Assembly: GCA_022825725.1 (NCBI GenBank)
Contig: JAJDWE010000068.1
Coordinates: forward strand, 1 to 64,000
Direction of reading: 5' to 3'
Length of the DNA: 64,000 bases
DNA from: Gemmatimonadota bacterium
GTDB taxonomy: Bacteria > Gemmatimonadota > Gemmatimonadetes > Palauibacterales > Palauibacteraceae
How positions within the stretch are numbered: the stretch's first letter is position 1; every line of letters begins with the position of its first letter. Both the position numbers and the translations under genes were made by a program. Positions 40,232 through 57,276 of this stretch are shown one piece after another. Below the pieces are notes generated by a model that made no database searches, was not told where the DNA came from, and was given only the letters and a program-made list of their open reading frames with translations.

Positions 40232-41089
40232 GTGGCAGAACAGGCAATAACTCAGGAACAACTCTTCCTTCCGTTGCTGCACTTCATTTCCGATCACGGC
40301 GGAGAAATAGATCGCCAAGAGGATCGCCTGCTCGACGCTCTTGCCGACCGGCTTGGGTTGACCGATGAGGAGCGCAGCCGCACGACCGAAGGAGGCAGCC
40401 GAAACCAATGGCGATCGACTGTCGAGTTTTCGCGAGCCAAACTCCTCGATGAGTACCGGGCGATCGACAATGACAGTCCTCAAGGGATTTGGCGCCTCAC
40501 CGACCGCGGTCGGGCGATGGTGGAACATCCTCCGTCCGAAATACAGGAGAGCTTTAGGGAGTGGCGGCAGAGGCGACTCGCCCACCTGCCCCAGGACGCT
40601 CTCCCACCTCCATTTCGACCATCAGGGCGAGCAGTCACGCGACTTGAGAACATGAGCCAAGGGCTCACCCGTGAAGTTACTGAGACGTTGCGTGTTAAGC
40701 GAAACGCCGGATTGGCGAAGGCCCTTCGTGAGGAGTACAAGTACCGTTGTCAGCTGTGCGACGACTCCCATCCTGACTGCCCCCCGATTCCCATGGCAGA
40801 CGGGCGGTACTACGTCGAGGTTCATCATCTTCACGGGCTAGCCGAGGTCGCGGCTCGTCACGAGCACGGGCAACTTTCTGACTCGGAATACGCAAATCTC
40901 ACGTCGTGGCATAACATCGTAGTTGTATGTCCATACCACCACATGTTGATTCACCACCACGACCCACCCCTCGAGTTCGTGCGGAATGAGCTTGCGTTCC
41001 GCACAGCCGACGGGGGAGCTGCGTTGAAAATAGTTCGGCGTCTGGAATCTCATCTTGAGGCGACCGCTACCGATGGGGAGGGCAAATGA
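40232..41089 (+). CDS. HNH endonuclease with winged-helix N-terminus
   Basis: A 285-residue predicted restriction nuclease. The N-terminal 90 residues resemble an Mrr_N-type winged helix (LPLLHFISDHGGEIDRQE and YRAIDNDSPQGIWRLTDRGR). The C-terminal HNH fold has a zinc knuckle CQLCDDSH, YVEVHHLHGLAEVA with the catalytic His, WHNIVVVCPYHHMLIHH and closing strand. A GTG start at 40232 has AGGAG upstream. Its stop overlaps the start of the AspBHI-like gene (ATGA), so they are co-translated. Confidence 0.87.
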   Translation: MAEQAITQEQLFLPLLHFISDHGGEIDRQEDRLLDALADRLGLTDEERSRTTEGGSRNQWRSTVEFSRAKLLDEYRAIDNDSPQGIWRLTDRGRAMVEHPPSEIQESFREWRQRRLAHLPQDALPPPFRPSGRAVTRLENMSQGLTREVTETLRVKRNAGLAKALREEYKYRCQLCDDSHPDCPPIPMADGRYYVEVHHLHGLAEVAARHEHGQLSDSEYANLTSWHNIVVVCPYHHMLIHHHDPPLEFVRNELAFRTADGGAALKIVRRLESHLEATATDGEGK

Positions 41090-42386
41090 GGGTCGGTGAT
41101 GTATTCCGCTACGCGACGCCGAACGACTGGCGTCCGCCGACGGTGGACGGACTACCCAACTACTTCCACGCGGTTCACTCTCCCAATCAGCCCCACGCAA
41201 AGCTCGACAGGGGCATCAGCGGGATCGCAGAATTGGAAGCGGTCGATGGTCCCCGCCGGCCCGCAATCCTAATCTCTAGCAGCCCGCACAAGATCGGGTC
41301 GACCGAAACCCCATGGCAGGATGTGTTTGACGTCGACAACGGCCATATCCGGTACTTCGGCGACAATAGGCGACCGGATATCGACCCGACGAAGCCCGTG
41401 GGAAACTCAATTCTGCTGGCTCAGCGCAACGTCCACGATTCGCCCGACCCCAAGATCCGGGCGCACGCGGTCCCGCTGATATTTTTTCGCAGGGTTCCGT
41501 ACGAGGGACGGCAGAAGGGCCAGGTGAACTTCCAGGGCTTTGGACTCGTCACTCGCGCAGAGCTAGTAACGCAGTTCAGTGCAAAATCGGGCAACTATTC
41601 AGCAACTACGTATTCGATTTCACGGTGCTGAGCCTTGCTGCGGAATGCGAAGAGTTCGACTGGGCGTGGATCAGCGCGCGACGCAACGCTGCGCTCAGCT
41701 TGAAACAAACTCTGGAATACGCACCGTCCTCTTGGAGGCACTGGATTCGACAGGGTCCAAGTTCTATCGACCGACATCGGCGGCGCGTGTCGAAACTGAT
41801 GACCACAAGGAAGGGTGATCAGGTCCCCGAGCAAGGATCTAGGCAGGCCAGAACGCTGGACACGATCTTGAGGTTCTACGACAAACGGAAGAGAAGGTTT
41901 GAGGCCCTGGCAAGCGTGATTACGGCCAGCTTTGTCGAACGAAACGGCGGCGAATACATGGAGGGCTGGGTCACTCCAGCCTCATCGGACGGAGGAGCTG
42001 ACTTCATTGGCCGCCTAGACGTCGGGCAGGGTTTTTCGTCGACAAAGCTCGTGGTCCTCGGGCAAGCGAAGTGCGAGCGGCCAACCACTCCGACTAGCGG
42101 CAACCACATCGCACGCACGGTAGCACGGCTCAAGCGGGGCTGGATCGGCGCGTACGTCACCACGAGCCACTTCTCAGAAAGCGTGCAGCGCGAAGTTATC
42201 GAGGACAGGTATCCGATTCTTCTGATCCATGGCAAGACGCTTGCTGAGGAGGTGCTTCGACTCACTCAGGACGGAGGCCACGATGACGTCGGTTCCTACC
42301 TGCGAGCCATCGACGACACGTACGAGTCGTTGATCGCTCAGCGCAGACCAGAGCAGATCCTCCTCTATCCATCTCGAAAATCGTGA
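41086..42386 (+). pseudogene. AspBHI-like modification-dependent restriction endonuclease, frameshifted
   Basis: Two overlapping frames together encode one protein of about 433 residues. The first (to 41631) is the N-terminal SRA-like recognition half seen in AspBHI (MRVGDVFRYATPNDWRPP, QRNVHDSPDPKIRAHAVPLIFF, GFGLVTRAELVTQF). The second carries the Mrr-type catalytic domain: GGADFIGRLD and LVVLGQAKCERP give the D...QxK site, with GWIGAYVTTSHFSESVQREV after it. Homology jumps frames at 41596-41600 (TATTC); one added T would give NYFSNYVFDFTVLSL and restore the gene. Known AspBHI-type enzymes cut DNA containing 5-methylcytosine. Either the gene is dead or a base is missing from the assembly. 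Confidence 0.85.
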
Positions 42387-42762
42387 ACCGAATTTGCGCG
42401 TCCACGGCTTCGTGGTTTGGTCTGGGAGGTGGTCGAAGACGAGTTGGGCTGCTCTCCGTCGTTTGGTCGAGTCATCGTCTCTGTGGGACGCACCTAAGGG
42501 AGGGATGGGCGAGGATGGGATCGAGCGACTGCGCTGACGCAAGTCAACTCGGGTGCCCCGACCGGACAACTCCCGTCCGCTCACACGTCTGAAGTAGCTG
42601 CCGTTCATAATCGGGAGCTCGATCACTCCGGCAACCTGAGCACCTGGGGGAGCGGCAGGAGCACGTCTTGTCGGGTGTGGTTTCGCCGCCGAATAGTTGA
42701 TCTGCACGACATCGATGACTGTATTTTATCGGTTGGTGATCTCGAAGTCATCGTGCTGGCGG
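42376..42762 (-). pseudogene. Decayed 3' remnant of an aldo-keto reductase gene
   Basis: The minus strand can be aligned by eye with the last 400 bases of the intact gene at 43369-44307. Shared islands include VQINYSA (intact VQVNYSV), MNGSYFRRVSGREL (intact MNGNYFGRVSGREL) and, in shifted frames, the C-terminal block ending near KRRMRDLVQDF. Many substitutions and several indels break the frame, so it is older than the 53-kb copy. The remnant directly abuts the AspBHI-like gene. Confidence 0.8.
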
Positions 42763-43368
42763 AGGCTGGGCGGCCACCGACCCTGTTTGGGGACAGCTGT
42801 CAGGTGGTTACCCGTATCAGAACACGTGAGGAGACCACGATGAAACGAATCGTTCCCGTGGCCCTGGTGCTGGCCGAATGCTCGCCGATCACGGAGCCCG
42901 AGCCTCACATTCGCTCGCCTGGCCGAATGCCGTGGGGTCATACCGCCTCGTGACGGTGAAGGTCCTCACGCCAGCGGTCTCCGTTGGAGGTACTCCTTTG
43001 ATAGTCCACTTTGGCGGTTACCGACGTCCGATCTGCGAACACGTTATCGAGCAGCATGAGCGCACGGAATGTGGCTATGGGATGGGAGGTGACGGCGGAA
43101 CTCACGGATGCGTGGGCGCAGTCGGGGGACAATCTGACGCTGCTGTCAGTGCGGATGAACAATATGACACATCGGTCGTTCCCGCAGGCCGGGCGGGCAG
43201 CTGCTCCACGATGCTGCCGGCTGTTCCAATCTCGCAGTCGTCGCAGGGACAACTTTATGGATTGCGCGTGACTGTGCGTATGCGTTGGAGTTGCTACACA
43301 ACCGATGACGGGCAGGGCATCTCCACACGCCACGCGACGACGGACAGCGTGTGGGACGCTCTCGGCTG
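42763..43368. other. Intergenic stretch with a possible decayed small lipoprotein
   Basis: No convincing intact gene. A plus-strand ATG at 42841 opens MKRIVPVALVLAECSPITEPE, which resembles a lipoprotein signal, but the frame closes after 38 codons. Neighbouring frames contain RLVTVKVLTPAVSVGGTPLIV and VAMGWEVTAELTDAWAQSGDN, which might be pieces of a frameshifted exported protein. Support is weak and no family is recognised. Confidence 0.3.
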
Positions 43369-44307
43369 TCAGAAATCCTGAACCAGATCTCGCATGCGCC
43401 GCTTCGTTGCCTCGTCCGGGAGGCGGCCGAAGGCGGCCCCGATGTTCTCTGCCATGTGCTCGGGGTTTGTAGTCTCGGTGAGGGCGCACGTCACAGCGGG
43501 GTGCGCCAGGATGTACTTGAGCGAGAACTGCGCCCAGCTCGTGCAGTCGAACTCGGCGGCCCATTCGGGCAGCTCGCGTCCGCTCACCCGTCCGAAGTAG
43601 TTGCCGTTCATGAACGGACGGTTGATGAGAACGGCGAGCCCCAGATCCTGCGCGAGCGGAAGAAGACGGTCCTCCGCGTTCGGCTCCATCACCGAGTAGT
43701 TGACCTGAACGAAGTCCAGCGGCTGCGTCCTCATGAACGACTCGAACACCTCGTGCTGGGGGATGCTGGAGGTCGTGACGCCAATATAGCGCGCCTCACC
43801 TGAGTCCTTCCACCGAAGGACGTTGGGCCAGTGTACGTCGAGGTTGCGCATGCTCTCGACTTCGAGCAGATCCACGGTGCGGCTTCCGACGAGCTGCTGG
43901 TTCTGCCGCATCTGTTCGATTCCCGACGCTTCCCCGTCCGTGTTGATCTTCGTCGCGACGAAGAGGCGGCCGATGAACTCCGGCGCCGTCAGAACCTCGC
44001 CGAACTCCGCATCGATCTCCGGCGTGCGCGGTGAAGTGTCGACGACCCGCCCGCCGTACTCGAGGAGCATTCGGATCACGCCGAACAGAGGCTCCGTCCC
44101 CTCGGTCGGGATCTCGAGGACGGGCTTCGAGGAACCGAAGCCCACGATAGGCAGTGTCTCCTCGGTTCCCGGGATCGGGCGCGTGGGGAGCACCTCCTGG
44201 AGCGGCAGTGTGTTCCCCAACACGGCGCGCGGGGCGGCCAGCACCACTCCAAGACCCGCCAGACGAGTCAGAAAGCTGCGGCGCGTCGTACCGTACGAGC
44301 GTGCCAT
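43369..44307 (-). CDS. Tat-exported aldo-keto reductase-like protein (intact copy)
   Basis: A 312-residue protein with a Tat signal (YGTTRRSFLTRLAGLGVVLA). The TIM-barrel of the aldo-keto reductase superfamily is shown by LPIVGFGSSKPV, RVVDTSPRTPEIDAEFGEVL, LFVATKIN (Lys), DSGEARYIGVTTSSIPQ, and DFVQVNYSVMEPNAEDRLLPLAQDLGLAVLI. The usual catalytic Tyr after VDTS and the His of the QVHN strand are not evident, so reductase activity is doubtful. The ATG at 44307 begins the Tat peptide. Two damaged copies at 42.4 and 53.5 kb share its sequence. GC is high, unlike the flanking blocks. Confidence 0.85.
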   Translation of the reverse strand: MARSYGTTRRSFLTRLAGLGVVLAAPRAVLGNTLPLQEVLPTRPIPGTEETLPIVGFGSSKPVLEIPTEGTEPLFGVIRMLLEYGGRVVDTSPRTPEIDAEFGEVLTAPEFIGRLFVATKINTDGEASGIEQMRQNQQLVGSRTVDLLEVESMRNLDVHWPNVLRWKDSGEARYIGVTTSSIPQHEVFESFMRTQPLDFVQVNYSVMEPNAEDRLLPLAQDLGLAVLINRPFMNGNYFGRVSGRELPEWAAEFDCTSWAQFSLKYILAHPAVTCALTETTNPEHMAENIGAAFGRLPDEATKRRMRDLVQDF

Positions 44308-44777
44308 GAGACCTCCTTCGATCAACATGCCGCCCACGCTGCGGGCGCTTGTGCCGTCTCCGCACGGGCGCTGCTGGAAGTTCAGCATGTAGGACGGAGA
44401 ATGCGAGGGCAAGCTATTCCTCCGCGGGCCTAGCATGCCGCGCCCCTTCCACTGCGTCCACGTCCTGCCGCGAGGAATGGCCGGTCGTTGCTCGCGTCTG
44501 GATTTGTCACACACCGCTGTCCGAGCCGGGTGACGATGCGTGCACGCCGGATCTCGGCGGCCGGTGGGAAGCAGGCCGCAAAGCGGTCGAACAGGCTGTC
44601 AGCGCCCGGACCGCTTTGAGCAGCTGAGTCCCGGCGTGGGAGGTGTTCGTCCCGCGCGGAAGAAAGAGGCTACGGCCGGGGCGTCATCTTCCGGGACCGG
44701 AAAAGTCACCCATCAGTCGGAAGCTCGAATTCAAGTGACAACGTTGCCGGGCTCGTGCCACTTCAACATACGATGCA
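44308..44777. other. Intergenic region between aldo-keto reductase and cytosine methylase genes
   Basis: No gene recognised. The first half is GC-rich, the second half falls to the lower GC of block B, so the left boundary of block B lies about 44640-44780. A short plus-strand open stretch ending KAVEQAVSARTALSS at 44627 could be a gene tail left by recombination, but no family is recognisable. Confidence 0.5.
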
Positions 44778-45803
44778 TCAAGATGAGCTTAGGAGCGCCG
44801 CTCTTATACTCTTCCCTTGCACCCTGGCGAACGCTGGGGGAATGGCGTTACCTACCAATCTGGCATTTGCGTACTTGCCTCGGTTCATCTTGAACTTATA
44901 CCCCGCAGGGAAAGACTGGAGCAGTGCAGCTTCTCTCAACGTAATTGATCGGTTCTCCGTTGGATGCAAGAAACGCCCCTTCGACGGATTCATCGACCCA
45001 CAGGTGATCGTTGGTGCTGGGCGATCCCAGGCCATTCTGCCAAACACATCCTTGAACCCATCGACTCGACGATGGCACTCCAACTGCGTCTCCTCACCTA
45101 GCGCCACCCGGCTACCACCATCCACCGGAATCCGGCCAATCAGGTCCCGTATCCTACTAGAGCGTGACTCACCGTGATCGTGTGCGGGGTCACCGCTGGT
45201 CCCGGCGCTGGGGAGATTACCGATGGCCTCTCGAACACTGACTACTTTCCCCATCTCCTGCGGCAAATCGATCGTGAATCCACGACCGGCCATTACGATG
45301 ACTCGACGACGACGCTGCGGTACCCCGAAGTCCTTCGCATCCATGAGCGCCCACGTAACGTGGTATCCGCCTCTCTTCAGCGACCCGAGGAGGTTCTCGA
45401 ATTCTGCATGGTGCTTGAGTCCAGGTACGTTCTCCATCAGGATGGCCTTAGGGCGAAGGCTCAGTGCGAGCCTAAGGTAGTGCCCCACCAACTGATTCCT
45501 CGGATCGACAACCGTCCTACTGTAGTTGAGAGTGGTCAGCGCCGAGAATCCCTGGCACGGAGGACAGCCTGCCAGTAGATCAAGTTCTCCGCGCTGAACC
45601 CCGAACTCCCGCTCGATGTCAGCGGCGTCCAGCTTCCCCACATCTCCCAGCATCACTTTGGTGCGTGGGTGGTTGAGCTTGAAGCACTCCAACGCCACCG
45701 GATCCAGATCCACACCCCCCCGCACCCAGAAGCCAGCCTGGCGCAGCCCACTCGTGAGCCCTCCACAACCGCAAAACAAATCGACAGCCCTCGGCTTACC
45801 CAT
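44778..45803 (-). CDS. C5-cytosine DNA methyltransferase
   Basis: A 341-residue methylase and last gene of the block B operon. All main motifs are in order: I (AVDLFCGCGGLTSGLRQAGF), IV (DLLAGCPPCQGFSAL, catalytic Cys), VI (ILMENVPGLKHH), VIII (FGVPQRRRRVIVMA), then a short target-recognition region, IX (REAALLQSFPAGYKF) and X (ARLVGNAIPPAFARV). It methylates cytosine in an unknown site. The ATG at 45803 is favoured over a GTG 21 bases upstream because GGGGAGGGGAG precedes it. The gap from the HerA gene is 51 bases. Confidence 0.93.
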   Translation of the reverse strand: MGKPRAVDLFCGCGGLTSGLRQAGFWVRGGVDLDPVALECFKLNHPRTKVMLGDVGKLDAADIEREFGVQRGELDLLAGCPPCQGFSALTTLNYSRTVVDPRNQLVGHYLRLALSLRPKAILMENVPGLKHHAEFENLLGSLKRGGYHVTWALMDAKDFGVPQRRRRVIVMAGRGFTIDLPQEMGKVVSVREAIGNLPSAGTSGDPAHDHGESRSSRIRDLIGRIPVDGGSRVALGEETQLECHRRVDGFKDVFGRMAWDRPAPTITCGSMNPSKGRFLHPTENRSITLREAALLQSFPAGYKFKMNRGKYANARLVGNAIPPAFARVQGKSIRAALLSSS

Positions 45804-45854
45804 CCGTCTCCCCTCCCCCCTCACGCTGCCTCCGCAAACTTCCCACCGATCCTA

Positions 45855-47480
45855 TCACTTCAAACCACGCCCCACCCCTCGCTCGGGGTCCTCCCATTCC
45901 GTCGCCTGCTTCAAGAATTCCTCACTGCCTAAAGCTGCAGTGACCAGATCCGAATCAAAATCCACCTGGATCACTAACGGAAATCGCACCCCCTGCCCGC
46001 TCACGATCCCTTGGCCTGGGCCGAACCCAGGAAGTAGCCGGCTGTCCGACCTTGTGAGGTTCTCCATAACTTTTTCCACGAAGCCCTGATCGCGCGGATT
46101 AACGAGGCGAAAGATCAAGAACGTGTTGCACTGGGACAGCGCCGTTTCATCGAGGCGACTGGGCCTCTGGCTGATCAACAATAGTCCCGTTCCGAATTTC
46201 CTTCCCTCGGTGATGAGCTTCTTGATCACATCAACCGAAGGCGTCTCCGCTTGCCCTTCGCCCCGGGACGGTATGAAGTTATGGGCCTCCTCGACAACCG
46301 CAAAAAACGGCGGGATCCTATTCTCCATCGACGCACGGTGATTGAACAGCTGTTCGAGCACTATGGCGACAATCGTCGATTGCGTCAGGTGATCGTACCC
46401 ACCCAAGTAAACTACACTCGCTCGCCCTGGTCGGACGAATCCTGTCGGATCCAATCGTGGGTCCGGCATCGGCTCAAACGGCAAACCCTGCAGCGTAGCC
46501 TGTTTTCGTAGCCGCTCGTTGGATTTCTCCATCGCTTCCAGCCGGCCCTTCACTAATCGCAGCGCTCGCTTGATGGCCGGTATCGTTCCCGCATGCCTGC
46601 TCTTCGTATCACCTAGCTTCTTCATCATGAGTTCCACAAATCTCTGAACCGTCACCTCTCCCTTCAGGTTGATCTTGCCCAGTGCCTCGGAATATTTGTC
46701 CCTCTGAGCATCTGTGAAACCCTGTGTCATCTGCGCCACGAGATACCCAACAAGCGATAGATTCTCCTCACTCACGGTGAGGTTCGGATAAAACAAGCAG
46801 ATCGAGTTCCTGGGAAACAACTTCCGCTTGATCCACAAGCCCAAATAATCCCCGTGTGGATCGAGGATCACTAGCGGGTAACGGGCATCGAGCAGCTCGC
46901 GAATGATCCGTCTGGCAGCAACTGTCTTACCTCCTCCCGTCATCGCCAAGATCGCCATGTGCCGAGCTACAATGGCGTTTGTTTTGATACCGACCGGCAC
47001 GTCACTACGGCCGATGAGTGATCCCAAACGAAGGCGATGCACCGTCTCATCTCCCGTCAGAATGGTCCTAACTGCTCGCGCCGGCGGCAGGTAGACAACT
47101 GCTCCAGGGCTGACGGGATAATTCAGTGGTCGAATTCTCTTGAGATTACCCACATCTGTTGCACCCAGAACTAATACTCTACCCGTTACTTGGTCACGGG
47201 ACAGAGACAGTACTGTCGAGATTAGATCCACTCCCTCCTCTGCCAACTCTTGGCCAGCTTCCATCGGGAGGAAAGGGTTCGACCGGCCAAGCTCAACAAT
47301 GCGGCCCCACACCAACACCTGTTTCCGCCCCTGTCCCTCGGCTACGGGAATCTCCATCTCCACTCTCACCAGGTCCCCTAGCTTGGCCGTAAAGCTCTTG
47401 ACGATAAATGAAAACTCTTGCGGCGACGTATTGCCTACAACGGTGCCAACCTTAAATCCCGTTTCGTGTTTCGTAACCAT
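45855..47480 (-). CDS. herA: HerA-family hexameric DNA-translocating ATPase
   Basis: A 541-residue HerA/FtsK-superfamily ATPase. The N-terminal 140 residues form a HAS-barrel-like region; Walker A is ILAMTGGGKTVAARRI near residue 180 and LVILDPHGDYLGL follows; the Walker B-like acidic strand is FFAVVEEAHNFIPSRGEG near 400; SQRPSRLDETALSQCNTFLIFRL contains the sensor/arginine finger. HerA rings pump DNA and pair with a nuclease, NurA in archaeal end resection or SIR2, DUF4297 and others in phage defence. It lies 9 bases after the NurA-like stop, so the two proteins are likely partners. Confidence 0.92.
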   Translation of the reverse strand: MVTKHETGFKVGTVVGNTSPQEFSFIVKSFTAKLGDLVRVEMEIPVAEGQGRKQVLVWGRIVELGRSNPFLPMEAGQELAEEGVDLISTVLSLSRDQVTGRVLVLGATDVGNLKRIRPLNYPVSPGAVVYLPPARAVRTILTGDETVHRLRLGSLIGRSDVPVGIKTNAIVARHMAILAMTGGGKTVAARRIIRELLDARYPLVILDPHGDYLGLWIKRKLFPRNSICLFYPNLTVSEENLSLVGYLVAQMTQGFTDAQRDKYSEALGKINLKGEVTVQRFVELMMKKLGDTKSRHAGTIPAIKRALRLVKGRLEAMEKSNERLRKQATLQGLPFEPMPDPRLDPTGFVRPGRASVVYLGGYDHLTQSTIVAIVLEQLFNHRASMENRIPPFFAVVEEAHNFIPSRGEGQAETPSVDVIKKLITEGRKFGTGLLLISQRPSRLDETALSQCNTFLIFRLVNPRDQGFVEKVMENLTRSDSRLLPGFGPGQGIVSGQGVRFPLVIQVDFDSDLVTAALGSEEFLKQATEWEDPERGVGRGLK

Positions 47481-47489
47481 CTCGCGCTC

Positions 47490-49298
47490 CTAGTTCGCGT
47501 CGGCCCTGTAAAAGAAATCCCGCGGATTACCCGATAACAGTTGACGCACCTGTGACACGAGTCCCGCGTCACCGGTGTTGACCGCGCGTCTCAGAATAAC
47601 CCCCGACAGCTCAGCTGAGATGCCACGCGATAGCCAATCGGGAACCTTGGCGTACTTATCGACGATGTCGAGGCCCACCGGGAACGCATACTGAGGTAGC
47701 AATCTGCCCGTGTGATATAATAGCGACATTATATACGCACTGTTGACCTCGGCAGCAGTCGCGTTCAACTCCACGCGAAACGGAAAGCGCGTTTCCTCTG
47801 TTTTTATCAGAGACGTGTAAACGGGAGGGTATTGCGCGACGACCGATCGCCAGTGCTCTCGCGCCCGATTGACCGCATTCTTCGACACCTCCACGGGAGT
47901 AAGGTACTCGCCGGATCTGAGAATGCAGCCGAAGAGGAAATCATCCGAAATATCGAACTTCAATAGGAGGTCATCAATATCCTTCGATTCATCGGTATTG
48001 ATGATTCCGTCCTCGACCAACGCGGCCAGCACTGCCGTGGTCACGTGCCGGCCGGTTGGTCGTTCGACCACACCCGCGATCGGCCTTGCATGATTCACGA
48101 TCCTGTTGGTCACGTATCCGTAGATCGACATGAACTGATTCCACAGCGAGACGTTACGGGAATCGGGTGGGATGTCGAGCAACTCTGACATCACAGCCGA
48201 TCGATGTACACTCATACTCGCCAAAAACTCTGCGGCCATGCATGGAATGTTGTTTGGTTCCCCCTCGTCGTACATCGTGAACTGGTTGACAAGGGGGCCA
48301 TGAATGAAGAGGGACGACGTATCGGGTTTCAGTTCTAGGTGGACAAGGGCTGTTAGCAACTCAAGAACATACCTCGCAGCTTCGTGGAGTCGTTTCCGAT
48401 CCGTCGTGTCCCTTATCCCATGGGGTGGTTGGTCAACGATGTCGCCCAAGACATAGGGAGTCAGCGACCATTGTTCCCTGGTTTCCATGATTTGGTCACC
48501 CGGGGCTACATTGTAAATTCCGACTCTCAGCGCCATGGGTTCGAGGGATGCTAGGGCCGGAATTCTCGCCACGCCACCATCGAGGAAAGAAAACCGCTGG
48601 CCCTGTGCCGTCGGCCAAAAATCTCTGTGACTCTTATCGATCCGTTGAATTGCGAGACTCTTCGTCCGTCCTGTAAGGCAGTGCCTGAGGCGGTCAGCCA
48701 GCTTCCTGAGGACGATCGGGAAATCGATGTGGTCATCTGACCGAAGCGAGAGCACATGGTTGAACAGCGGGACAAGAATGTGAGGACCGTCAAGAAAGCC
48801 ACCAACATGCACTGCATAAAGCTCGACATCTGTCGTTGCACAGCGGCTGTAGATCACTTCCGCAACTCGGTTGCCACATATAATCGCGCTCGTTCTTGGA
48901 GGCAGGTCAAAGGATTGAAGTCGCAATGTCGGATCTTCTCTCTCTAGTTCGGCAAAAAAGTTGGTCGGAGCTACGTGAATAACCACTCGTGCCTCCGTCT
49001 TGCTGCCTTCAAAGTAGAAGAGCACATTCTTCGTTGTCGCGGGCATGGCGATAATGCATGCGGCAAGGTGTTGTGACTTGATGAAGAACTCATCCTTCAT
49101 CCGTATCAACTTGGCGTTTGGGTCAAGGGCGATTGTACCGTCCGTCGTGCGGCACTTGACCATGAGACGACAGCCTGCTGCCAGATGTTCGACCGATGTT
49201 CCTAACGGGCAAAGGTGCTGCTTGGCCAACCTCTTTGGATGAGAGCCCTCCTCCGTCAGCCACGTGTATCTCGCGACTAGGATGAACGGATGGCTCAT
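47490..49298 (-). CDS. NurA-like nuclease, predicted HerA partner
   Basis: A 602-residue protein, much larger than archaeal NurA (about 340). The middle has QRFSFLDGGVARIPALASLEP near residue 280, like the first acidic strand of NurA (DG[GS]), then YVLELLTALVHLELKPD and SSLFIHGPLVN near 370, matching the second strand but with His where NurA has Asp (DGPL). The C-terminal part (SAYIMSLLYHTGRLLPQYAFPVGLDIVDKYA) resembles the end of the NurA domain. The first 250 residues match nothing I recognise. Assignment rests on these patterns and on HerA next door. ATG 49298 overlaps the Vsr stop by four bases. Confidence 0.65.
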   Translation of the reverse strand: MSHPFILVARYTWLTEEGSHPKRLAKQHLCPLGTSVEHLAAGCRLMVKCRTTDGTIALDPNAKLIRMKDEFFIKSQHLAACIIAMPATTKNVLFYFEGSKTEARVVIHVAPTNFFAELEREDPTLRLQSFDLPPRTSAIICGNRVAEVIYSRCATTDVELYAVHVGGFLDGPHILVPLFNHVLSLRSDDHIDFPIVLRKLADRLRHCLTGRTKSLAIQRIDKSHRDFWPTAQGQRFSFLDGGVARIPALASLEPMALRVGIYNVAPGDQIMETREQWSLTPYVLGDIVDQPPHGIRDTTDRKRLHEAARYVLELLTALVHLELKPDTSSLFIHGPLVNQFTMYDEGEPNNIPCMAAEFLASMSVHRSAVMSELLDIPPDSRNVSLWNQFMSIYGYVTNRIVNHARPIAGVVERPTGRHVTTAVLAALVEDGIINTDESKDIDDLLLKFDISDDFLFGCILRSGEYLTPVEVSKNAVNRAREHWRSVVAQYPPVYTSLIKTEETRFPFRVELNATAAEVNSAYIMSLLYHTGRLLPQYAFPVGLDIVDKYAKVPDWLSRGISAELSGVILRRAVNTGDAGLVSQVRQLLSGNPRDFFYRADAN

Positions 49299-49729
49299 TG
49301 CGCGCCGTCGCCTCGTCTGACGGCTTGAACAACCGCGTCCACAGCATCGTGGCGGCGCGTGTTTATCTGGCACTCCCAGAACCGTAGCACGATCCAACCC
49401 GCCTCTCTCAGCGCCAGATTATCTCTCGTGTCTCGCTCCCGATTCTTGGAGAGCTTTGTCGCCCAAAAGTCGGCATTCCCTACGGGGGCCACATAGTGAT
49501 CGGGACATCCGTGCCAGAAGCACCCATCGACAAAAATTGCAATTCGCTTGGAGGCAATAGAGAAATCTGGCCGCGTTCCGGATATCTCACGACTCTTACG
49601 GTAGCGGAGGCCCCTCGCCCACATCGCCCTCCCCAACGCCGTCTCGGGAGCGGTATCTCGCTGGCGAACCCTGCCCATCAGTTGACTACGATCCTCCACC
49701 GACAAGCGATCTCTAGTGACGCGCCGCAT
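49295..49729 (-). CDS. vsr: Vsr-type very short patch endonuclease
   Basis: A 144-residue PD-(D/E)XK-fold nicking enzyme of normal length. SQLMGRVRQRDTAPETALGRAMWARGLRYRK, GTRPDFSIASKRIAIFVDGCFWHGCPDHY (catalytic Asp and zinc Cys/His) and NREDT-like NRERDTRDNLALREAGWIVLRFWECQI are the Vsr signatures. In E. coli, Vsr nicks at T:G mismatches produced by deamination of Dcm-methylated cytosine; the operon here also encodes a C5 methylase, fitting that role. A direct attack role on foreign DNA is the alternative. Its ATG shares one base with the helicase stop (TGATG). Confidence 0.93.
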   Translation of the reverse strand: MRRVTRDRLSVEDRSQLMGRVRQRDTAPETALGRAMWARGLRYRKSREISGTRPDFSIASKRIAIFVDGCFWHGCPDHYVAPVGNADFWATKLSKNRERDTRDNLALREAGWIVLRFWECQINTRRHDAVDAVVQAVRRGDGAQ

Positions 49730-52665
49730 CAGGTCTTCTCCTGCTGAAATTCGGAGAACGCCCTGGCAAGACGTGGCGCGCGGTTCGGAACATGGATGGG
49801 TGGAGGGCGGGTGTCGACCTTAAATGGCTCCGCTAGAGCCGGGCAAAGCAAGCGAAAATCGCACGCTTCGCACTTCGTGGTATGCGGACGCATGGGGAAA
49901 TCGTCGTCGAGGACGCGATCTACAGCCCATTTGACATTTCCGAGAGCAGCTTCCAGAGCTTCGGGCTCGACTGGAACGTCGATCCGTGAATTGCCTTTGA
50001 GAAGATGAACGTGTCCTGTTCTGGCGTGTTCGTTGACAACCTCATGCGCTGCGTGTGCGTACAGTTGTACTTGTAGCGACAGTTCTGTCCAATGCAGAGT
50101 AGGGTCTTCACTGGGGTTCGCCCCCCCGTCGATTGCCTTGAAGTCGATTACCCGAGCATCCAATACCTGACCTCGTTCATCCTCTCTCAACAGCAAGTCG
50201 ATGGAGCCGGTTATGACCGCCTGTTCGACCGGCACCTCGAATCGCATCTCAACCTGCCGTCGCTGACCGAAGTCGAGCTCAAATGAGTCGACGTAATCAC
50301 TCAAAATCTGGCCGGACCGTTCCTTTGCACGCTCGTACGGTCCGGGGCGAACCTCGGGGTCGCGGCTCGGAGCCACGTGCTTCAGATGAAAGACGCTCTG
50401 TGCCAAATCCCGGGCTTCGTCGGGTGACGGTGCCCCAGAATCAAACTGAAGGTGTAGGGCACTCACGGCGGTGTGCACCGTCCGTCCGAAGCCGAACATT
50501 TCCTTGATGGGCGGACTGAAGCCGTAAAGCCGACTGAATCGGTACTGCTGCGGACAACAAAGGTACTGCCGGATTTCCGTAAAGCTCGTGGGTACAACTG
50601 GCTCTTCAATTCTGGCCACCGCCTGCGCCGGTTCTAGCCCGTCAGGTAAACCAACGGAATCATCCGAGATCTCCGGATGCAACAGGCGTCGAGAGAAGTC
50701 GGACTCCCTCCATCGTTTTCGTCCGCCGGGAAGCTGTTCGCAACCAGTAACGTACAGGTATCGTTCCGCCCTCGTGATCGCCGTGTAGAAAAGACGGATC
50801 TCGCCTTCTCGCGTACCGTGGTGCGCGCCTCTGTCCACGGCCGCCTGAATGCACTCGGATGGCAACCAACCCCGGTAGCTTGATCGATTCGTGGGGAATC
50901 GTCCCTGCTCCACGTCAGCAACAAACACGACTGGGAACTCAAGTCCCTTCATCTTGTGGACTGTCGACACGGTCACCTCGTCAGGCCTGGAAGCGATCTC
51001 CCGGATGCCCGAATCGTATCCCGCCCCCACTAGGTTGTTGACAAAGTTTAGCACCGATCTATAGCGCCCCGCGGAGTCAATGCTCAGGTAGACCGACTCC
51101 ACATCCTGGAGAACTTGGCTGAGGACTCCAAGATCTCGCATCGCTTGAGGCGGCAATAGGGATCGCTTTATCTCAAAGGCGTGGAGAATCTCGTGGAGAA
51201 ACTGTTGTGGATACAATCTTACCCGACTTCCACTACTAGGTCTGTGTATATTCCGACCCCAGCGTGAAAGCACTTCAACGACCCTCCCAAACTTGGCTTC
51301 AGGGAACACGGGCCATACGTCCGCTTCTAAATGGGCCCGAACCTGATCTCGGTCCGGAGTGTCGTGTCTCAGAAGCTCCAGTGTCTCCTGGATAACCCGC
51401 GCGTGTGGCCGACTGAAGATGCTTCCTGCCGATTGCAGGTTGAATTCGACCCCGACGTTCGTCAACGCATCAGTGAAAGCAGTGTGTCTTTGAGTTCCGC
51501 TTTGTCCCTCTGGCTTATCCGCGGATCGCATTAGAATGGCGAAGTCGCCCGGGCTAAGGCCTCGTTCTGTACCGTTCGCCTCGACGAACTTCGTGCCGAG
51601 CAGATGACGGATACGGTGGGCAATCCACTCAGCTTCGTCCTGTCTATTCTCGAACCACAGGACCCTAAAGTCGCGAGGTGACGGATTGTGGTTTGCTTCT
51701 GGTGCCTTAGGGTATAGCTGCGCTCCGAGTTCGGCGTGGACGAATCTGTCCGCAGCGGTCACGATCGGTTCAGTACTCCGATAGTTCACGGAAAGCGTAT
51801 GGCGACTTGCATTCGGATGCTTTTGATTGAAACAGAGGATGTTGTTCACATCGGCACCCTTCCACGCGTAGATCGCCTGATCGTCGTCACCGACGCAGAA
51901 AAGCGTCTCGGCCCGAGCCCCCAGGATTTCAATCAACGCCTCCAAAGATGGTTCGACATCCTGATATTCGTCGATCATCAAGTGGCGCACGTGTTCGACT
52001 GCTTTCTGCGCCTTAGACTCCTGCTTCCCGAGGGCTTCAACCACCAGCCTCGGCATGCTCGAAAAGTCAACGAATTGCTCCCGGTCCATCACCTGTCGAA
52101 GCTCTTGCAGAGTTCGGCCAAGAGGGGGTGACCCTTGGGACACGCAGCTGACATCGACCATCTCACCGTTCGTCACGTACAAGGCATTGGCCACCTCGTT
52201 GATGGTCTGAAAGTACTTCGTGCGATAGAGGTTCTGGAGTTGTCCCAAGCGCAGCGTTCCATAGTGATTCATCAAGAGCAGTCTCAGCCGGTTCGGATCG
52301 AGTACATCGAACTGATTGTACTTGGCATCTATCTTCTTTAGGATCTCCAAACAGAATGCATGAATCGTACCTATGTACATCGCTGTGATCACACGAGGGT
52401 CCTGTCCAGCCCGCGCGAGCGCTCCGGACACACGCTGCTTGATGCTCTCCGCCGCTTTCTCGGTAAATGTGATTGCGACTATGCTGCCCGGATCTACTCC
52501 TTCGGACACAAGGCGGGCAATCCGATAGGCTAACGTTCTGGATTTTCCGGAGCCTGCACATGCCAAGCACAGTAGTGTATGGGAGGGATCCAGGGCAGCT
52601 CGCCGCTGGGCGGAGTTTAGGTCGACTTCAAGAACGTCTGCGAGGCAGCGGTGGTCAGCATTCAT
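49729..52665 (-). CDS. UvrD/RecB-type helicase fused to PD-(D/E)XK Fe-S nuclease
   Basis: A 978-residue superfamily 1A helicase and first gene of the block B operon. Helicase motifs: Walker A LACAGSGKSRTLAYRIARL near residue 35, Ia IVAITFTEKAAESIKQRV, II HLMIDEYQDVEPSLEAL near 225, III FCVGDDDQAIYAWKGAD, IV HTLSVNYRSTEPIV, V VTVSTVHKMKGLEFPVVFV and VI RLFYTAITRAERYLYVTG. The last 280 residues are a RecB/AddB-type nuclease with ITGSIDLLLRE and ARVIDFKAID giving the D...DxK site, and Cys residues CCPQQY and CEACDFRLLC placed to hold a 4Fe-4S cluster. It would unwind and degrade DNA ends. Confidence 0.93.
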   Translation of the reverse strand: MNADHRCLADVLEVDLNSAQRRAALDPSHTLLCLACAGSGKSRTLAYRIARLVSEGVDPGSIVAITFTEKAAESIKQRVSGALARAGQDPRVITAMYIGTIHAFCLEILKKIDAKYNQFDVLDPNRLRLLLMNHYGTLRLGQLQNLYRTKYFQTINEVANALYVTNGEMVDVSCVSQGSPPLGRTLQELRQVMDREQFVDFSSMPRLVVEALGKQESKAQKAVEHVRHLMIDEYQDVEPSLEALIEILGARAETLFCVGDDDQAIYAWKGADVNNILCFNQKHPNASRHTLSVNYRSTEPIVTAADRFVHAELGAQLYPKAPEANHNPSPRDFRVLWFENRQDEAEWIAHRIRHLLGTKFVEANGTERGLSPGDFAILMRSADKPEGQSGTQRHTAFTDALTNVGVEFNLQSAGSIFSRPHARVIQETLELLRHDTPDRDQVRAHLEADVWPVFPEAKFGRVVEVLSRWGRNIHRPSSGSRVRLYPQQFLHEILHAFEIKRSLLPPQAMRDLGVLSQVLQDVESVYLSIDSAGRYRSVLNFVNNLVGAGYDSGIREIASRPDEVTVSTVHKMKGLEFPVVFVADVEQGRFPTNRSSYRGWLPSECIQAAVDRGAHHGTREGEIRLFYTAITRAERYLYVTGCEQLPGGRKRWRESDFSRRLLHPEISDDSVGLPDGLEPAQAVARIEEPVVPTSFTEIRQYLCCPQQYRFSRLYGFSPPIKEMFGFGRTVHTAVSALHLQFDSGAPSPDEARDLAQSVFHLKHVAPSRDPEVRPGPYERAKERSGQILSDYVDSFELDFGQRRQVEMRFEVPVEQAVITGSIDLLLREDERGQVLDARVIDFKAIDGGANPSEDPTLHWTELSLQVQLYAHAAHEVVNEHARTGHVHLLKGNSRIDVPVEPEALEAALGNVKWAVDRVLDDDFPMRPHTTKCEACDFRLLCPALAEPFKVDTRPPPIHVPNRAPRLARAFSEFQQEKT

Positions 52666-52892
52666 TCAAGATCCAGCGGTTTGGGTAGCAGGCACGTGGA
52701 CGTCTCAGGCCCGTCAAAACACTCGGGCCTTCGCGAGTTCCGGGGGCGAGCCTCGGCCAGCGCTCGCTTCGGATCGCGCATCAGTTGCTGAGCGCTACGG
52801 AGGGAGACTAACGACCTGTTTGGTATCAATCAAACCACGGAAGGGGCAACGCCACAGCAGACTTGATGGCCAGAAGTAGGGTTGCCCATTTG

Positions 52893-53465
52893 GATTCCGC
52901 CGGTGCGGCGGAGCAGTCTCAGGTGGGTGCGGACGTTGTCGTGCACGAAGTAGGCGTCCTGCAGGTGGCGCGCCCCGGACGAGACCATCTCGGTGCGGCC
53001 GTGCAGGACCCGGTGGCCGGCGCACAGCAGGATCATCCCGCCCTCCAGCCGGAACTCGACCCGGGCGGCGGGGTCGTTGACGCGGCTCGACAGCTCGTGG
53101 TAGGCGGCGTAGAACTCGCCCAGCCGGGGCTCCGACAGGGGAACGGCCTGCATCTGCGCCGTGTTGAAGCGGATCATCCGGATCTCGCCGCCGCTGTCCA
53201 CGTCGACCATGGGGTTGGCCGCGTAGCACTCGTATTCGTCGCTGAAGATCCGGAACGGGACCGGCACCGAGCACAGCGAGTCGAACTTGTCGGGGTGCTC
53301 GCTGCGCAGCGCCTCGAGCACGCCGAAGCCGTCCACGACGGTCGATGCGCCGCCTTCACACTCGTTCACCAGCATGTGCAGCGCCTGCACGCTCGGAGGC
53401 CAGGTGTAGCTGGTGAAGTCGTTGTGCACTCCGACGGCCAGAGCCGTGTACGCGATGTTGTATCC
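52893..53465 (-). pseudogene. 3' fragment of a TmpA-like dioxygenase gene
   Basis: About 190 codons nearly identical to the C-terminal half of the intact gene at 56161-57276, from YNIAYTALAVGVHNDFTSYT through HRVLHGRTEMVSSGARHLQD to LLRRTG. The start of the gene is missing. Sequence after RRTG diverges and adds about 20 foreign codons before a stop at 52830. At the 5' side it joins the aldo-keto reductase fragment out of frame, so no functional dioxygenase is made. Differences such as V for E in YFVHDN show it is not an assembly duplicate. Confidence 0.9.
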
Positions 53466-53961
53466 ACCGGAGGACGTTGGGCCAGTGCACGTCCAGATCG
53501 CGCATGCTCTCGACCTCGAGCAGGTCCAGGGTACGGTTCCCGACGAGCCGCTGGTTCTGCCGCATCTGCTCGATGCCGGCCGCTTCCCCGTCCGTGTTGA
53601 TCTTCGTCGCGACGAAGAGGCGGCCGCTGAACTCCGGCGCCGCCAGGACCTCCCCGAACTCCGCGTCGATCTCCGGCGTGCGCGGCGAAGTGTCGACGAC
53701 CCGCCCGCCGTGCTCCAGGAGCATTCGGATCACGCCGAACAGAGGCTCCGTCCCCTCCGTCGGGATCTCGAGCACGGGCTTCGAGGAGCCGAAGCCCACG
53801 ATGGGCAGCGTCTCCTCCGTTCCCGGGATCGGGCGCGTGGGGAGCGCCTCCTGGACCGACAGCGCACTTCCGAACACGGAACGCGGAGCGGCCAGCACGG
53901 CACCGGCGCCCGCCAGACCCATCAGAAACTCGCGGCGCGTCGTATCGCTCGGGGTCGTCAT
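53463..53961 (-). pseudogene. 5' fragment of the aldo-keto reductase gene, joined to dioxygenase sequence
   Basis: Codons 1-167 match the intact gene at 43369-44307 at about 90 percent by eye, including the Tat signal (TTRREFLMGLAGAGAVLAAP) and LPIVGFGSSKPVLEIP. After DVHWPNVLRW the sequence switches to the dioxygenase fragment in the wrong frame and stops at 53356. The junction at 53463-53465 shares the three bases TCC between both parents, the mark of joining by short homology. Loss of the second half of the barrel means the product, if made, is not an enzyme. Confidence 0.9.
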
Positions 53962-54038
53962 CAGCCCTCCTTCAATCGGTCCGGCGGCAGGTTCGGCATG
54001 AATCTAACGGCAGAAACGGCGACGAGGGACCGGGCAAG

Positions 54039-54932
54039 CTACTCCTTGATGTAGGGGATCTCGGCGTCGCGGGACGGCCAGTGGCGCCGGACATACCAAA
54101 TGAGCACGGGAAGCGTCACGGCCACCATGGCGAGGCCGGGGAGTGCCATGGCCTCGATCTCTGCAAGCTCGTCGGCGAACGTCCACGGCTCGTCCGACCC
54201 GGGCATGAACATGGCACCCGTGGCAACCAGGTTGTTTGCGGCGTGGAAGGCGATCGGGACGATCAGCGTACGAGACTGCAGGTACAGCAGTGAGGCAATT
54301 ACGCCGAGAGCCATTGCCCCTGCCACATCAAGGTGCAGGATCCCGAATATCGCCGAGGATACGACGATGGCGGTCCCGATTCCCCACTTCACTCCCCAGC
54401 GGCTGAGGAAGACGCCCCGGAAGAGTACTTCTTCCAATACCGGAGCGACGGCGACCGCTCCGATGACCCACCAGACCGACGAAATCATCGAATCCGGATC
54501 CGGTGCCCCGGCTGTCAGGAGTGACTCCAGCAACTCCGGGGAAACGCGCGAGAGTCCGTAGGCGGTGACGACCAACGAACCGATCGAAAAGATAAACGTG
54601 ATCGCAAGGAGGCCCGCCGCCGGGAGCCAGTTGTACCCCGCCGGGACCCGTCCGACGAACCGGCCCAGGTCGATGTCGGCGTTACGGCAAGCCCACACGA
54701 TCCACGCAACGACGAGGCCATGGATGGCAATTTCAACGACGATGCCGCCGGTTGCCGACTCCATCGAATCCAGCGGCAGAATCAAGCCGGCGAGAGCCGC
54801 GACCACGAAGACGACGATGCTGCCGACGATCATCCACCAAATGAGCGTTCGGCTGCGAAGCCTCAGAAAGGGATTACCGGACGCGTCTCCCGGATCGTGA
54901 GAGACTTCGGGCGACTGCTGCCCTTCCATCAT
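54039..54932 (-). CDS. CPBP-family intramembrane protease (CAAX-like)
   Basis: A 297-residue membrane protein with about eight hydrophobic segments. The family motifs are present: EEVLFRGVFLSRWG near residue 165 (EExxxR), SSAIFGILHLD near 195 (first His) and IPIAFHAANNLVA near 230 (FHxxxN). These belong to Abi/CPBP glutamic proteases, which process prenylated or membrane proteins and in bacteria include bacteriocin self-immunity proteins. Role here unknown. The ATG at 54932 (ATGATGG) is chosen as the longer upstream frame has no family sequence. It is divergent from the sterol methyltransferase gene. Confidence 0.9.
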   Translation of the reverse strand: MMEGQQSPEVSHDPGDASGNPFLRLRSRTLIWWMIVGSIVVFVVAALAGLILPLDSMESATGGIVVEIAIHGLVVAWIVWACRNADIDLGRFVGRVPAGYNWLPAAGLLAITFIFSIGSLVVTAYGLSRVSPELLESLLTAGAPDPDSMISSVWWVIGAVAVAPVLEEVLFRGVFLSRWGVKWGIGTAIVVSSAIFGILHLDVAGAMALGVIASLLYLQSRTLIVPIAFHAANNLVATGAMFMPGSDEPWTFADELAEIEAMALPGLAMVAVTLPVLIWYVRRHWPSRDAEIPYIKE

Positions 54933-55101
54933 GGAGTTCTCCCTTCGGGGATGAATTGCAGGCAGAAGACGAGCGTGAGGCTTTGCGTCAAAGGATGTCA
55001 AGCACGTTGGAGTTGCGAAGTGCGCTTGCGGATGCCGGCGAATCGGTGTTCCTTCCCGTGCGATCTTCGGAGTACGCCTGCAAACCGGACAGGACGACCT
55101 G

Positions 55102-56133
55102 GTGACCCCTGCATCTGTCAAACGGACCGACGCCCGATCACTCGCGGATCTCGCCCCGGATGAAGTGAAATCCGTCGTCGAGCAGTACAGCGGCATCCAC
55201 GACGCCGGTGTGGAGCGCAGAAGGGAACGTTATCGGTCGTTCGTCAATCACTACTACGACCTGGTGACGGATTTCTACGAGTTCGGCTGGGGGCAGTCCT
55301 TTCACTTCGCTCCCCGGCGCCGGGGCGAGAGCTTCAAGGCGTCGCAGCTCGGACACCAGCATTTTCTCGCCGATCATCTGTCCCTTGAACCGGGGATGCA
55401 GGTGCTCGATGTGGGGTGCGGGGTAGGAGGACCGATGGGCGCCCTGGCCCGCTATTCCGGGGCGAGCTTTGTCGGCCTCAACAACAACGCCTACCAGATC
55501 GAGCGCGCGAAGGCGCACACCCGGGATGTCCGGTCCTTGTGCCGGTTCATCCACGGCGACTACATGCAGATCCCCGACGGCGACCACCGCTACGATGCCG
55601 CCATCGCCATCGAGTCCATGCCGCACGCACCGGACAAGACGGCGGCGTTCCGGGAGATCTTCCGCGTCCTGCGTCCGGGGGCCTGCTTCGCGGGCTACGA
55701 CTGGTGTCTCACTGAGGACTTCGATCCACGGGACGCCGATCACGTGCGGATCAGGGACGCCATCGTGGAGGGGGATGCGCTTCCGGATATCGCCCGAACA
55801 TCGGAGATCGGCACCGCCCTGCGCGCGGCTGGATTCGAACTCGTCGAACACGGCGACCGCGCTTCCGCATCGGACCCGACGACGCCCTGGTACCGTGCTC
55901 TGCAGGGCCGCGACCTCAACCTGAGGAGCATTCCGCGCACACCCTTTGGCCGCGCCATGACGAATCTCGTGTTGCGAGTTGGCGAGAAGTTGAGGGCGTT
56001 CCCGGAGGGCACCACCGCCGTAAGCTCGTTGTTGAACAAGACGGCCGACGCCCTGGTAGACGGTGGCAAGGCCGGGATCTTCACTCCGATGTTCTTCTTC
56101 CTGGCCCGCAAACCCCCGCACTCGGAGGCCTGA
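55102..56133 (+). CDS. Sterol 24-C-methyltransferase homologue
   Basis: A 343-residue SAM-dependent methyltransferase closely resembling ERG6/SMT. All SMT hallmarks are present: the sterol-binding region YDLVTDFYEFGWGQSFHFAP near residue 55, HQHFLADHLSLEPGMQVLDVGCGVGGPMGALA near 90 (SAM motif I), VGLNNNAYQIERAKAH near 128, AIAIESMPHAPDKTAAFREI and FAGYDWCLTEDFDP near 195. General SAM methylases do not share the FGWGQSFHF and DWCLTE blocks. SMT adds a methyl to C-24 of a sterol side chain. Bacterial homologues are known from uncultured lineages. It is convergent with the TmpA-like gene, stops 27 bases apart. An oxidosqualene-cyclase-type gene lies about 2 kb away. Confidence 0.9.
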   Translation: MTPASVKRTDARSLADLAPDEVKSVVEQYSGIHDAGVERRRERYRSFVNHYYDLVTDFYEFGWGQSFHFAPRRRGESFKASQLGHQHFLADHLSLEPGMQVLDVGCGVGGPMGALARYSGASFVGLNNNAYQIERAKAHTRDVRSLCRFIHGDYMQIPDGDHRYDAAIAIESMPHAPDKTAAFREIFRVLRPGACFAGYDWCLTEDFDPRDADHVRIRDAIVEGDALPDIARTSEIGTALRAAGFELVEHGDRASASDPTTPWYRALQGRDLNLRSIPRTPFGRAMTNLVLRVGEKLRAFPEGTTAVSSLLNKTADALVDGGKAGIFTPMFFFLARKPPHSEA

Positions 56134-56160
56134 CCGAAGGCAATCCGAAGTCCCCGGCCG

Positions 56161-57276
56161 TCAGATTCGGCCGGTGCGGCGGAGGAGCCTCAGGTGGGTG
56201 CGGACGTTGTCGTGCTCGAAGTAGGCGTCCTGCAGGTGGCGCGCCCCGGACGAGACCATCTCGGTGCGCCCGTGCAGGACGCGGTGGCCGGCGCACAGCA
56301 GGATCATCCCGCCCTCCAGCCGGAACTCGACCTGGGCGCCGGGGTCGTTGACGCGGCTCGACAATTCGTGGTAGGCGGCGTAGAACTCGCCCAGCCGGGG
56401 CTCCGACAGGGGAACGGCCTGCATCTGCGCCGTGTTGAAGCGGATCATCCGGATCTCCCCGGCGCTGTCCACATCGACTATGGGGTTGGCCGCGTAGCAC
56501 TCGTATTCGTCGCTGAAGATCCGAAACGGGACCGGCACCGAGCACAGCGCGTCGAACTTGTCGGGGTGCTCGCGGCGCAGCGCGTCGAGCACGCCGAAGC
56601 CGTCCACGACGGTGGATGCGCCGCCCTCGCACTCGTTCACCAGCATGTGCAGCGCCTGCACGCTCGGCGGCCACGTGTAGCTCGTGAAGTCGTTGTGCAC
56701 GCCGACGGCCAGAGCCGTGTGCGCGATGTTGTATCCCTTCGGGTCGAGCTTGACGTTGTGGATGCGCTCGAACAGCACCTCGCGGACCGGACCCAGACGC
56801 GGCGCGAGTTGCTCCAGCGAATCCGGTTCCGTGGGGGCATCGACGAGCACACAGACGCCGGTTCGCAGAAACTCCCCGATCACGTCCGCCGCCGCGGTGT
56901 CGCTCGCCAGGAACCGCCCGTAGTCGAATCTCCGAGGCTGGAACTGCCCGTCCCAGTACTGCAACTCGAGATGATGCCGGTGCAGAAGGCCATGGATTTC
57001 GCTGGACCGGTAGCGGGTGCGGTGACCGTCCGGCCAGGCGATGGCGATCGCCTCGTCCTCGGATCCGGCGCCTTCGATGTCGACCGTCCGCGGCTTCAGA
57101 TCGCTGGGTACACGGAAGACGTGGAACCGCTTCTCCGAGGTCTGCTCGACGCAGCACTCGCCGCAGCCGCAGTTGTCGCGCAGCCAGAGGTAGGGGAGGT
57201 CCGTCCGTTCGCCATCGCTCCAGACCGCGGTCATGGCATCGGCGTTCTGCGCGAGGCTGCTGATCGTGTGAGGCAT
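56161..57276 (-). CDS. TmpA/gamma-butyrobetaine hydroxylase-like 2-oxoglutarate dioxygenase
   Basis: A 371-residue non-heme iron dioxygenase. The N-terminal DUF971-like zinc domain is LPYLWLRDNCGCGECCVEQTS; the TauD domain has VGVHNDFTSYTWPPSVQALH (HxD iron ligands, near residue 187), HRVLHGRTEM near 340 (distal His and 2-oxoglutarate Arg). This is the architecture of gamma-butyrobetaine and trimethyllysine hydroxylases and of TmpA, which hydroxylates 2-(trimethylammonio)ethylphosphonate. The divergent HD-domain gene 144 bases away is the TmpB type, favouring TmpA; carnitine synthesis is the alternative. The ATG at 57276 starts MPHTISSL. A broken copy of this gene lies at 52.9-53.5 kb. Confidence 0.85.
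   Translation of the reverse strand: MPHTISSLAQNADAMTAVWSDGERTDLPYLWLRDNCGCGECCVEQTSEKRFHVFRVPSDLKPRTVDIEGAGSEDEAIAIAWPDGHRTRYRSSEIHGLLHRHHLELQYWDGQFQPRRFDYGRFLASDTAAADVIGEFLRTGVCVLVDAPTEPDSLEQLAPRLGPVREVLFERIHNVKLDPKGYNIAHTALAVGVHNDFTSYTWPPSVQALHMLVNECEGGASTVVDGFGVLDALRREHPDKFDALCSVPVPFRIFSDEYECYAANPIVDVDSAGEIRMIRFNTAQMQAVPLSEPRLGEFYAAYHELSSRVNDPGAQVEFRLEGGMILLCAGHRVLHGRTEMVSSGARHLQDAYFEHDNVRTHLRLLRRTGRI

Follow-up and report, generated by a model that had tools for sequence, protein, structure and literature searches.

The window analysed here is a 64,000-nucleotide stretch from a Gemmatimonadota bacterium (GenBank assembly GCA_022825725.1, contig JAJDWE010000068.1, positions 1 to 64,000). 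Its minus strand carries a compact operon of five genes (44778-52665), which encode, in reading order, a UvrD-type helicase with a PD-(D/E)XK nuclease domain (UvrD-PDDEXK), a Vsr endonuclease, a NurA-like protein, a HerA-type translocase and a C5-cytosine DNA methyltransferase (Table 1). We consider it fairly probable that this operon is a horizontally acquired restriction-modification (R-M) type system with a HerA-NurA effector. It probably represents a rare, uncatalogued kind of R-M defence. Methylase, NurA and HerA form the conserved core.

The NurA-like protein is found in six further loci; with the window this makes seven, six of them complete. The six belong to a metagenome-assembled genome (MAG) of the same class (L004 in genome G285: methylase // NurA, HerA, Vsr, DUF3427 protein), a gammaproteobacterial MAG (L006: NOV_C protein, NurA, HerA, Vsr, UvrD-PDDEXK, methylase), a Bacillota MAG (L007: NurA, HerA, methylase, HhH-GPD glycosylase) and three phage-type contigs (L009: methylase, AspBHI-type restriction endonuclease, Vsr, NurA, HerA, AIPR; L010: NurA, HerA, AIPR, methylase, no Vsr; L015: methylase, NurA, at which the contig ends). 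L006 and L007 were reached via the HerA alignment, and a scan of genome contigs with the NurA-like single protein gave nothing. A C5-methylase gene lies near the NurA-like gene in 7/7 loci and a HerA gene in all six loci whose contig continues. This means that the neighbourhood persists elsewhere and that a DNA methylase is linked to a nuclease module, as is required of R-M systems. In four whole genomes, one to four C5-methylase loci are present per genome, and the chance of finding a methylase within ~11 kb of NurA in all four is near 1e-8. In canonical HerA-NurA pairs on Natrinema and M. jannaschii plasmids, which served as controls, no methylase is located nearby. HerA orthologues are 52-69% identical in L004, L006, L007, L009 and L010, and methylase orthologues beside NurA/HerA 46-56% identical in L004, L006 and L007. 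The identities of methylase, HerA and NurA split into the same two clades, save for the divergent L010 methylase, as is expected of a unit travelling together. An archaeal candidate (L008, 35% over 110 residues) was set aside as a relative. Searches of the plasmid and INPHARED phage collections gave no NurA-like relative. A close HerA like that of the phage contigs was likewise missing from the plasmids, as was a close copy of the operon from E. coli genomes.

The original prediction of one joint system holds in part: the core recurs in distant genomes and all five genes are present, rearranged, in the gammaproteobacterium, but the five-gene set is not fixed. UvrD-PDDEXK is encoded in two of the six complete loci (window and L006). 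Its two copies share 26% identity, compared to 64-65% for HerA of the same loci, and the window protein is no closer to the L006 copy than to a helicase encoded on an Athalassotoga plasmid at an unrelated methylase locus. It scores with PADLOC GajB models. From these comparisons, UvrD-PDDEXK appears to be a variable accessory gene and not a fixed part.

The 602 aa NurA-like protein barely passes the Pfam NurA profile PF09376 (21.7 bits, cut-off 21). Its relatives from L007 and L009 score 32.5 and 41.2 bits, with E-values of 7.8e-8 and 1.8e-10 for two relatives; those from L004, L006, L010 and L015 are not listed among the PF09376 matches. An AlphaFold model built from the seven relatives (predicted local distance difference test, pLDDT, 77.7) was compared by Foldseek with the PDB. 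The six best matches are all NurA (E 8.7e-8 to 1.2e-6), among them 2ygk (8.7e-8), T. kodakarensis NurA in complex with HerA (9x1n) and P. furiosus NurA (3taz). A NurA fold is therefore supported by the predicted structure. The comparison of a single haloarchaeal NurA with the NurA-like protein by profiles was not significant, a PDB sequence search with the NurA alignment yielded one chance match, and nothing in a viral structure library was matched at E 0.001. The NurA-like nuclease is not recognised by any model of PADLOC, NCBIfam or PHROGs. Active-site residues were assigned by comparing motifs with those of two canonical proteins and not by superposition. The catalytic motif I Asp is retained (D240 in DGG), and the His of the M. 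jannaschii YP..AHNKAK motif is replaced by Asp (D547) in 7/7 relatives. About 215-230 extra residues precede motif I; L009 NurA is devoid of much of this region. The N-terminal extension has no Pfam match. Modelled alone (residues 1-215), it reaches a pLDDT of 79.4, and the weak top fold matches include several plant B3 DNA-binding domains, none of them significant. B3 shares its fold with the recognition domain of EcoRII. VP1/RAV-type domains were noted in related operons (Iyer et al., 2008; PMC2292703). The B3-like similarity of the modelled N-terminus may serve as a lead only.

HerA lies far below the NCBIfam cut-offs both for the repair HerA equivalog (NF040819, 162 bits, cut-off 970) and for HerA_antiphage (NF042943, 95.7 vs 800 bits; NF042944, 105.1 vs 850 bits). 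It is matched by PADLOC HerA models and ~26-29% identical to archaeal plasmid proteins. The methylase scores best with the PADLOC DruM2 model. Methylases with 37-43% identity, on plasmids and prophages, adjoin GHKL/HATPase or HEPN plus DUF262 genes; those of a Pantoea prophage (43%) and a Burkholderia plasmid (41%) adjoin HATPase_c_3 proteins. Such pairing of related methylases suggests that the effector partner is exchangeable.

Vsr exceeds the TIGR00632 cut-off of 97.85 with 130.8 bits and is present in four of the six complete loci. In an alignment to E. coli Vsr (1cw0), the positions of E25, D51, H69 and D97 are aligned, and Asp occupies that of H64. In the L007 genome no Vsr was found. 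There, the gene following the methylase encodes a 227 aa HhH-GPD protein that matches MutY and the T:G-mismatch enzyme 1kea and has no room for the MutY C-terminal domain. In a test of short regions, 1kea was not preferred to MutY, so that the substrate of the HhH-GPD protein is inferred. As both Vsr and a MutY/MIG-type glycosylase are able to act on T:G mismatches from deaminated 5-methylcytosine (5mC), the swap favours a repair role. Vsr probably repairs deaminated 5mC and does not attack. The host genome carries two further Vsr genes, each a few kb from another C5-methylase match (G000:C17:369-2916 and G000:C38:3227-4554; the latter match is partial only).

The five reading frames are arranged as originally predicted, on the minus strand and closely spaced. 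UvrD-PDDEXK and Vsr genes overlap by 1 base, Vsr and NurA-like genes by 4 bases (ATGA), and 9 bases separate the NurA-like from the HerA gene. The predicted gap of 51 bases between HerA and methylase applies if the latter starts at ATG 45803; with the mechanical GTG start at 45824 it comprises 30 bases. A GGAG-like site is located upstream of ATG 45803, which is likely the true start. The GC content of the operon block is 56.1% and, as predicted, lower than that of its flanks (69.2% in bases 1-38000, 67.3% in 56200-60000; 66% in the whole window). Across the window, no 7.9-kb stretch is lower in GC than this block. Pfam assigns domains to all five proteins and confirms the five proposed identities, with the predicted structure backing the weak NurA call.

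The operon block has been acquired recently, probably by horizontal transfer. The host assembly comprises 3.49 Mb in 84 contigs and is 97.7% complete; the window is its contig C70. Relative to the congeners L041 and L044, the window contains two insertions, at 38.9-43.4 kb and at 44.3-56.2 kb, the second of which holds the operon. In these congeners, window positions 44320 and 56168 are only 45-46 bases apart, and window sequence at 38881, from 43364 to 44320 and from 56168 onward is contiguous save for gaps of ~35-46 bases. The NurA-like gene was found in none of 15 congeners. Window self-comparison revealed at the right edge a chimera of duplicated flank sequence (Table 1). This points to illegitimate recombination or hotspot exchange, not to an integrase.

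Table 1. Features of the operon and of its insertion site (window coordinates)
Feature	Positions	Strand	Evidence or remark
C5-cytosine DNA methyltransferase	44778..45824	-	Pfam PF00145 (DNA_methylase) 4.6e-55; motif PPCQG present
HerA-type hexameric dsDNA translocase	45855..47480	-	Pfam DUF87 1.2e-25; HAS barrel, Walker A MTGGGKT, Walker B VVEEAH
NurA-type nuclease, 602 aa, with N-terminal extension	47490..49298	-	Pfam NurA 1.6e-4 and predicted structure
N-terminal extension of NurA-like protein, residues 1-215	48654..49298	-	Candidate target-reading domain
Vsr endonuclease	49295..49729	-	Pfam Vsr 2e-23; NCBIfam TIGR00632 130.8 bits
UvrD/PcrA-like SF1 helicase with C-terminal RecB/Cas4-like PD-(D/E)XK nuclease and Cys cluster	49729..52665	-	Pfam UvrD-helicase 8.2e-55, PDDEXK_1 5.6e-20
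Inserted segment with operon	44321..56167		Between aldo/keto reductase gene and TauD-type gene, which adjoin in congeners
Chimeric duplicate, right edge	52893..53977		52893-53465 copies 56164-56736 (95%); 53463-53977 copies 43809-44323 (87%)

The insertions are framed by three copies of a gene for a twin-arginine-type aldo/keto reductase (42378-42709, 43369-44514 and 53463-53977), of which only 43369-44514 is complete and the other two are partial. The first insertion encodes on the plus strand (39030-41089) a D12-class adenine methylase followed by an Mrr_N-domain protein with an HNH-like C-terminus. These two probably form a separate R-M pair in an insertion of its own. Downstream, also on the plus strand, an AspBHI-type restriction gene (41086-42386) of the modified-cytosine-dependent family is split into two frames, 41086-41631 and 41625-42386. 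An intact relative (L009 6619-7917) is found on a phage-type contig, inside the locus with HerA and NurA. A 5mC-dependent nuclease beside a C5 methylase could cause self-harm, and the frameshift may be due to selection or else to an error of assembly. Low GC (57-58%) is seen a second time at the window end (61000-64000). Here, judged by eye only, the open reading frame 61661-62656 resembles an SDH/ClpP-type serine protease and 63112-63996 is trypsin-like. Among the relatives, L006 is accompanied by more HNH-type and methylase-like genes (L006:16769-20532), which suggests a larger defence island, and L009 has a tyrosine-type integrase near the methylase (L009:3357-4631) on a contig with tail genes. 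In the case of L009, a prophage may carry the system along as cargo.

Gene content, conservation of the core over distant lineages, the NurA fold, the recent insertion and the replacement of accessory genes are observed; every activity and the order of events are what we infer from them as follows. Judged from its family, the C5 methylase would mark a sequence in host DNA as self. A NurA dimer docked on a HerA hexamer would act as the restriction effector. By analogy with the HerA-NurA end-resection complex, it would load on unmarked DNA, pump this DNA through the ring and degrade it. The best candidate for the reader of the unmarked site is the N-terminal NurA domain, with the methylase itself as an alternative. 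Vsr would remove T:G mismatches arising from deaminated 5-methylcytosine at marked sites and, in this way, contribute to the upkeep of the mark. The UvrD-RecB-type enzyme would be an exchangeable helper, probably one that extends degradation from the breaks. A bolder proposal, which we put forward tentatively and with some doubt, is a new ATP-dependent restriction class: HerA-NurA would be the restriction enzyme itself, its N-terminal NurA domain (possibly an EcoRII-N- or B3-like pseudobarrel) would read the unmethylated site and license loading of the HerA ring, and processive digestion would take the place of a site-specific cut.

Several observations weigh against an R-M system with HerA-NurA as effector. 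In 7/7 loci, His (H333) takes the position of the Asp in the canonical DGPL/DGTL motif, a substitution by which, judged from the motif, NurA catalysis might be altered or lost. The fold search with the N-terminal extension gave no significant match. Only seven loci are available, of which three lie on contigs with a viral classification. In addition, the operon is rare: it occurs in 2/395 genomes of the phylum sample, and in samples of 299 and 321 genomes the centre genome is the only one. A defence role is in line with the setting, i.e. AIPR genes, an AspBHI-type restriction gene, phage contigs and a hotspot insertion without a counterpart in congeners. In archaea and Deinococcus, HerA-NurA resects DNA ends (PMC9960219), and every part of the operon has relatives in repair. 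The operon might accordingly be a repair cassette and not a defence system, with HerA-NurA and the RecB-type enzyme resecting double-strand breaks and Vsr and methylase performing ordinary very-short-patch repair. We regard this as improbable: the genes are absent in 15 congeners, the insertion site is variable, relatives reside on phage-type contigs with AIPR or AspBHI-type companions, no Mre11/Rad50 is encoded beside the operon as it is beside the archaeal pair, and HerA is far under the repair equivalog cut-off.

The original prediction assigned to Vsr the role of the recognition enzyme, which nicks or cuts unmethylated sites from which HerA-NurA and the UvrD-RecB-type enzyme degrade the DNA. 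The Vsr gene overlaps those for helicase and NurA and is probably translationally coupled to them; in Caulobacter, loss of a cytosine methylase causes Vsr-dependent DNA damage (PMC12907096), and the Asp at the H64 position is shared with Neisseria Vsr proteins that act on relaxed motifs. Nevertheless, L007 and L010 lack Vsr and keep methylase, NurA and HerA, and the MutY/MIG-type glycosylase that holds its place in L007 fits mismatch repair, not restriction. Furthermore, Vsr-family genes are found within a few kb of the other two C5-methylase matches of the host. This makes a nicking role of Vsr unlikely, and less likely than repair of deaminated 5mC. Even less probable, to our judgement, is abortive infection, in which the methylase would be the antidote and loss of methylation upon phage takeover would allow NurA-HerA to destroy host DNA. 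A methylase and a strong nuclease can make a toxin-antidote pair, and AIPR genes (an abortive-infection family) replace the helicase in L009 and L010. However, R-M operons often contain AIPR genes (PMC2292703), and no sequence feature separates such a system from ordinary restriction. That unrelated defence genes were clustered by chance in a hotspot is already largely refuted and highly implausible. The other insertion, 2-6 kb away, with adenine methylase, Mrr_N/HNH-type protein and AspBHI-type gene, indicates that the site collects defence genes; the same three to five genes, however, recur jointly in six further loci of distant lineages, and the low probability calculated above concerns the methylase alone in four genomes.

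Among described systems, the closest relatives of the HerA-NurA R-M operon are the paraMORC-type R-M systems, which combine a C5 methylase and Vsr (PMC2292703, PMC8011034). MORC/paraMORC systems share with it C5 methylase, Vsr, exchangeable nucleases, helicases and AIPR, whereas the five genes here match no GHKL family and HerA with NurA supplies the ATP-driven component. Archaeal and Deinococcus HerA-NurA, in known cases a 6:2 translocase-nuclease (PMC9960219), has the same adjacent genes and NurA fold. In contrast, the operon here comprises a C5 methylase instead of Mre11/Rad50 and an extended NurA with His for the DGPL Asp. HerA/FtsK capture systems have been described as well (PMC10853773, PMC12839542). 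HerA-based defence, i.e. HerA with SIR2 or DUF4297 and DndH/HerA-FtsK capture (PMC11291478, PMC10853773), likewise uses a HerA translocase that feeds a nuclease, but here HerA is partnered by NurA and accompanied by a C5 methylase, and the HerA_antiphage cut-offs are not reached. Dcm-Vsr very short patch repair also combines a C5 methylase with a nearby Vsr, which here share the operon with HerA-NurA and a helicase-nuclease. Druantia, DISARM and Gabija resemble the operon in single parts only (methylase DruM2, helicase GajB), and PADLOC detected none of the hallmark proteins of Druantia, DISARM, BREX and Gabija (DruE, DrmA/DrmB, PglZ/BrxC, GajA) among the five. Its best matches are methylases, HerA, Vsr and generic UvrD-type helicases, with none for the NurA-like protein. 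The statement of the original prediction that no named system has exactly these parts agrees with PADLOC and with the literature searched, in which no description of the gene set was found; subscription papers were mostly and supplements wholly beyond reach, so that its unpublished status is unproven. Rarity may explain its absence from catalogues.

If the operon functions as proposed, an archaeal-type DNA end-resection motor would have been recruited as the cutting arm of methylation-guided immunity. HerA-NurA would be a further module, besides GHKL and HEPN, with which such methylases pair, and together these would look like one design with an exchangeable effector. Moreover, the glycosylase in the place of Vsr in one lineage offers a direct test of repair versus attack by Vsr in R-M operons.

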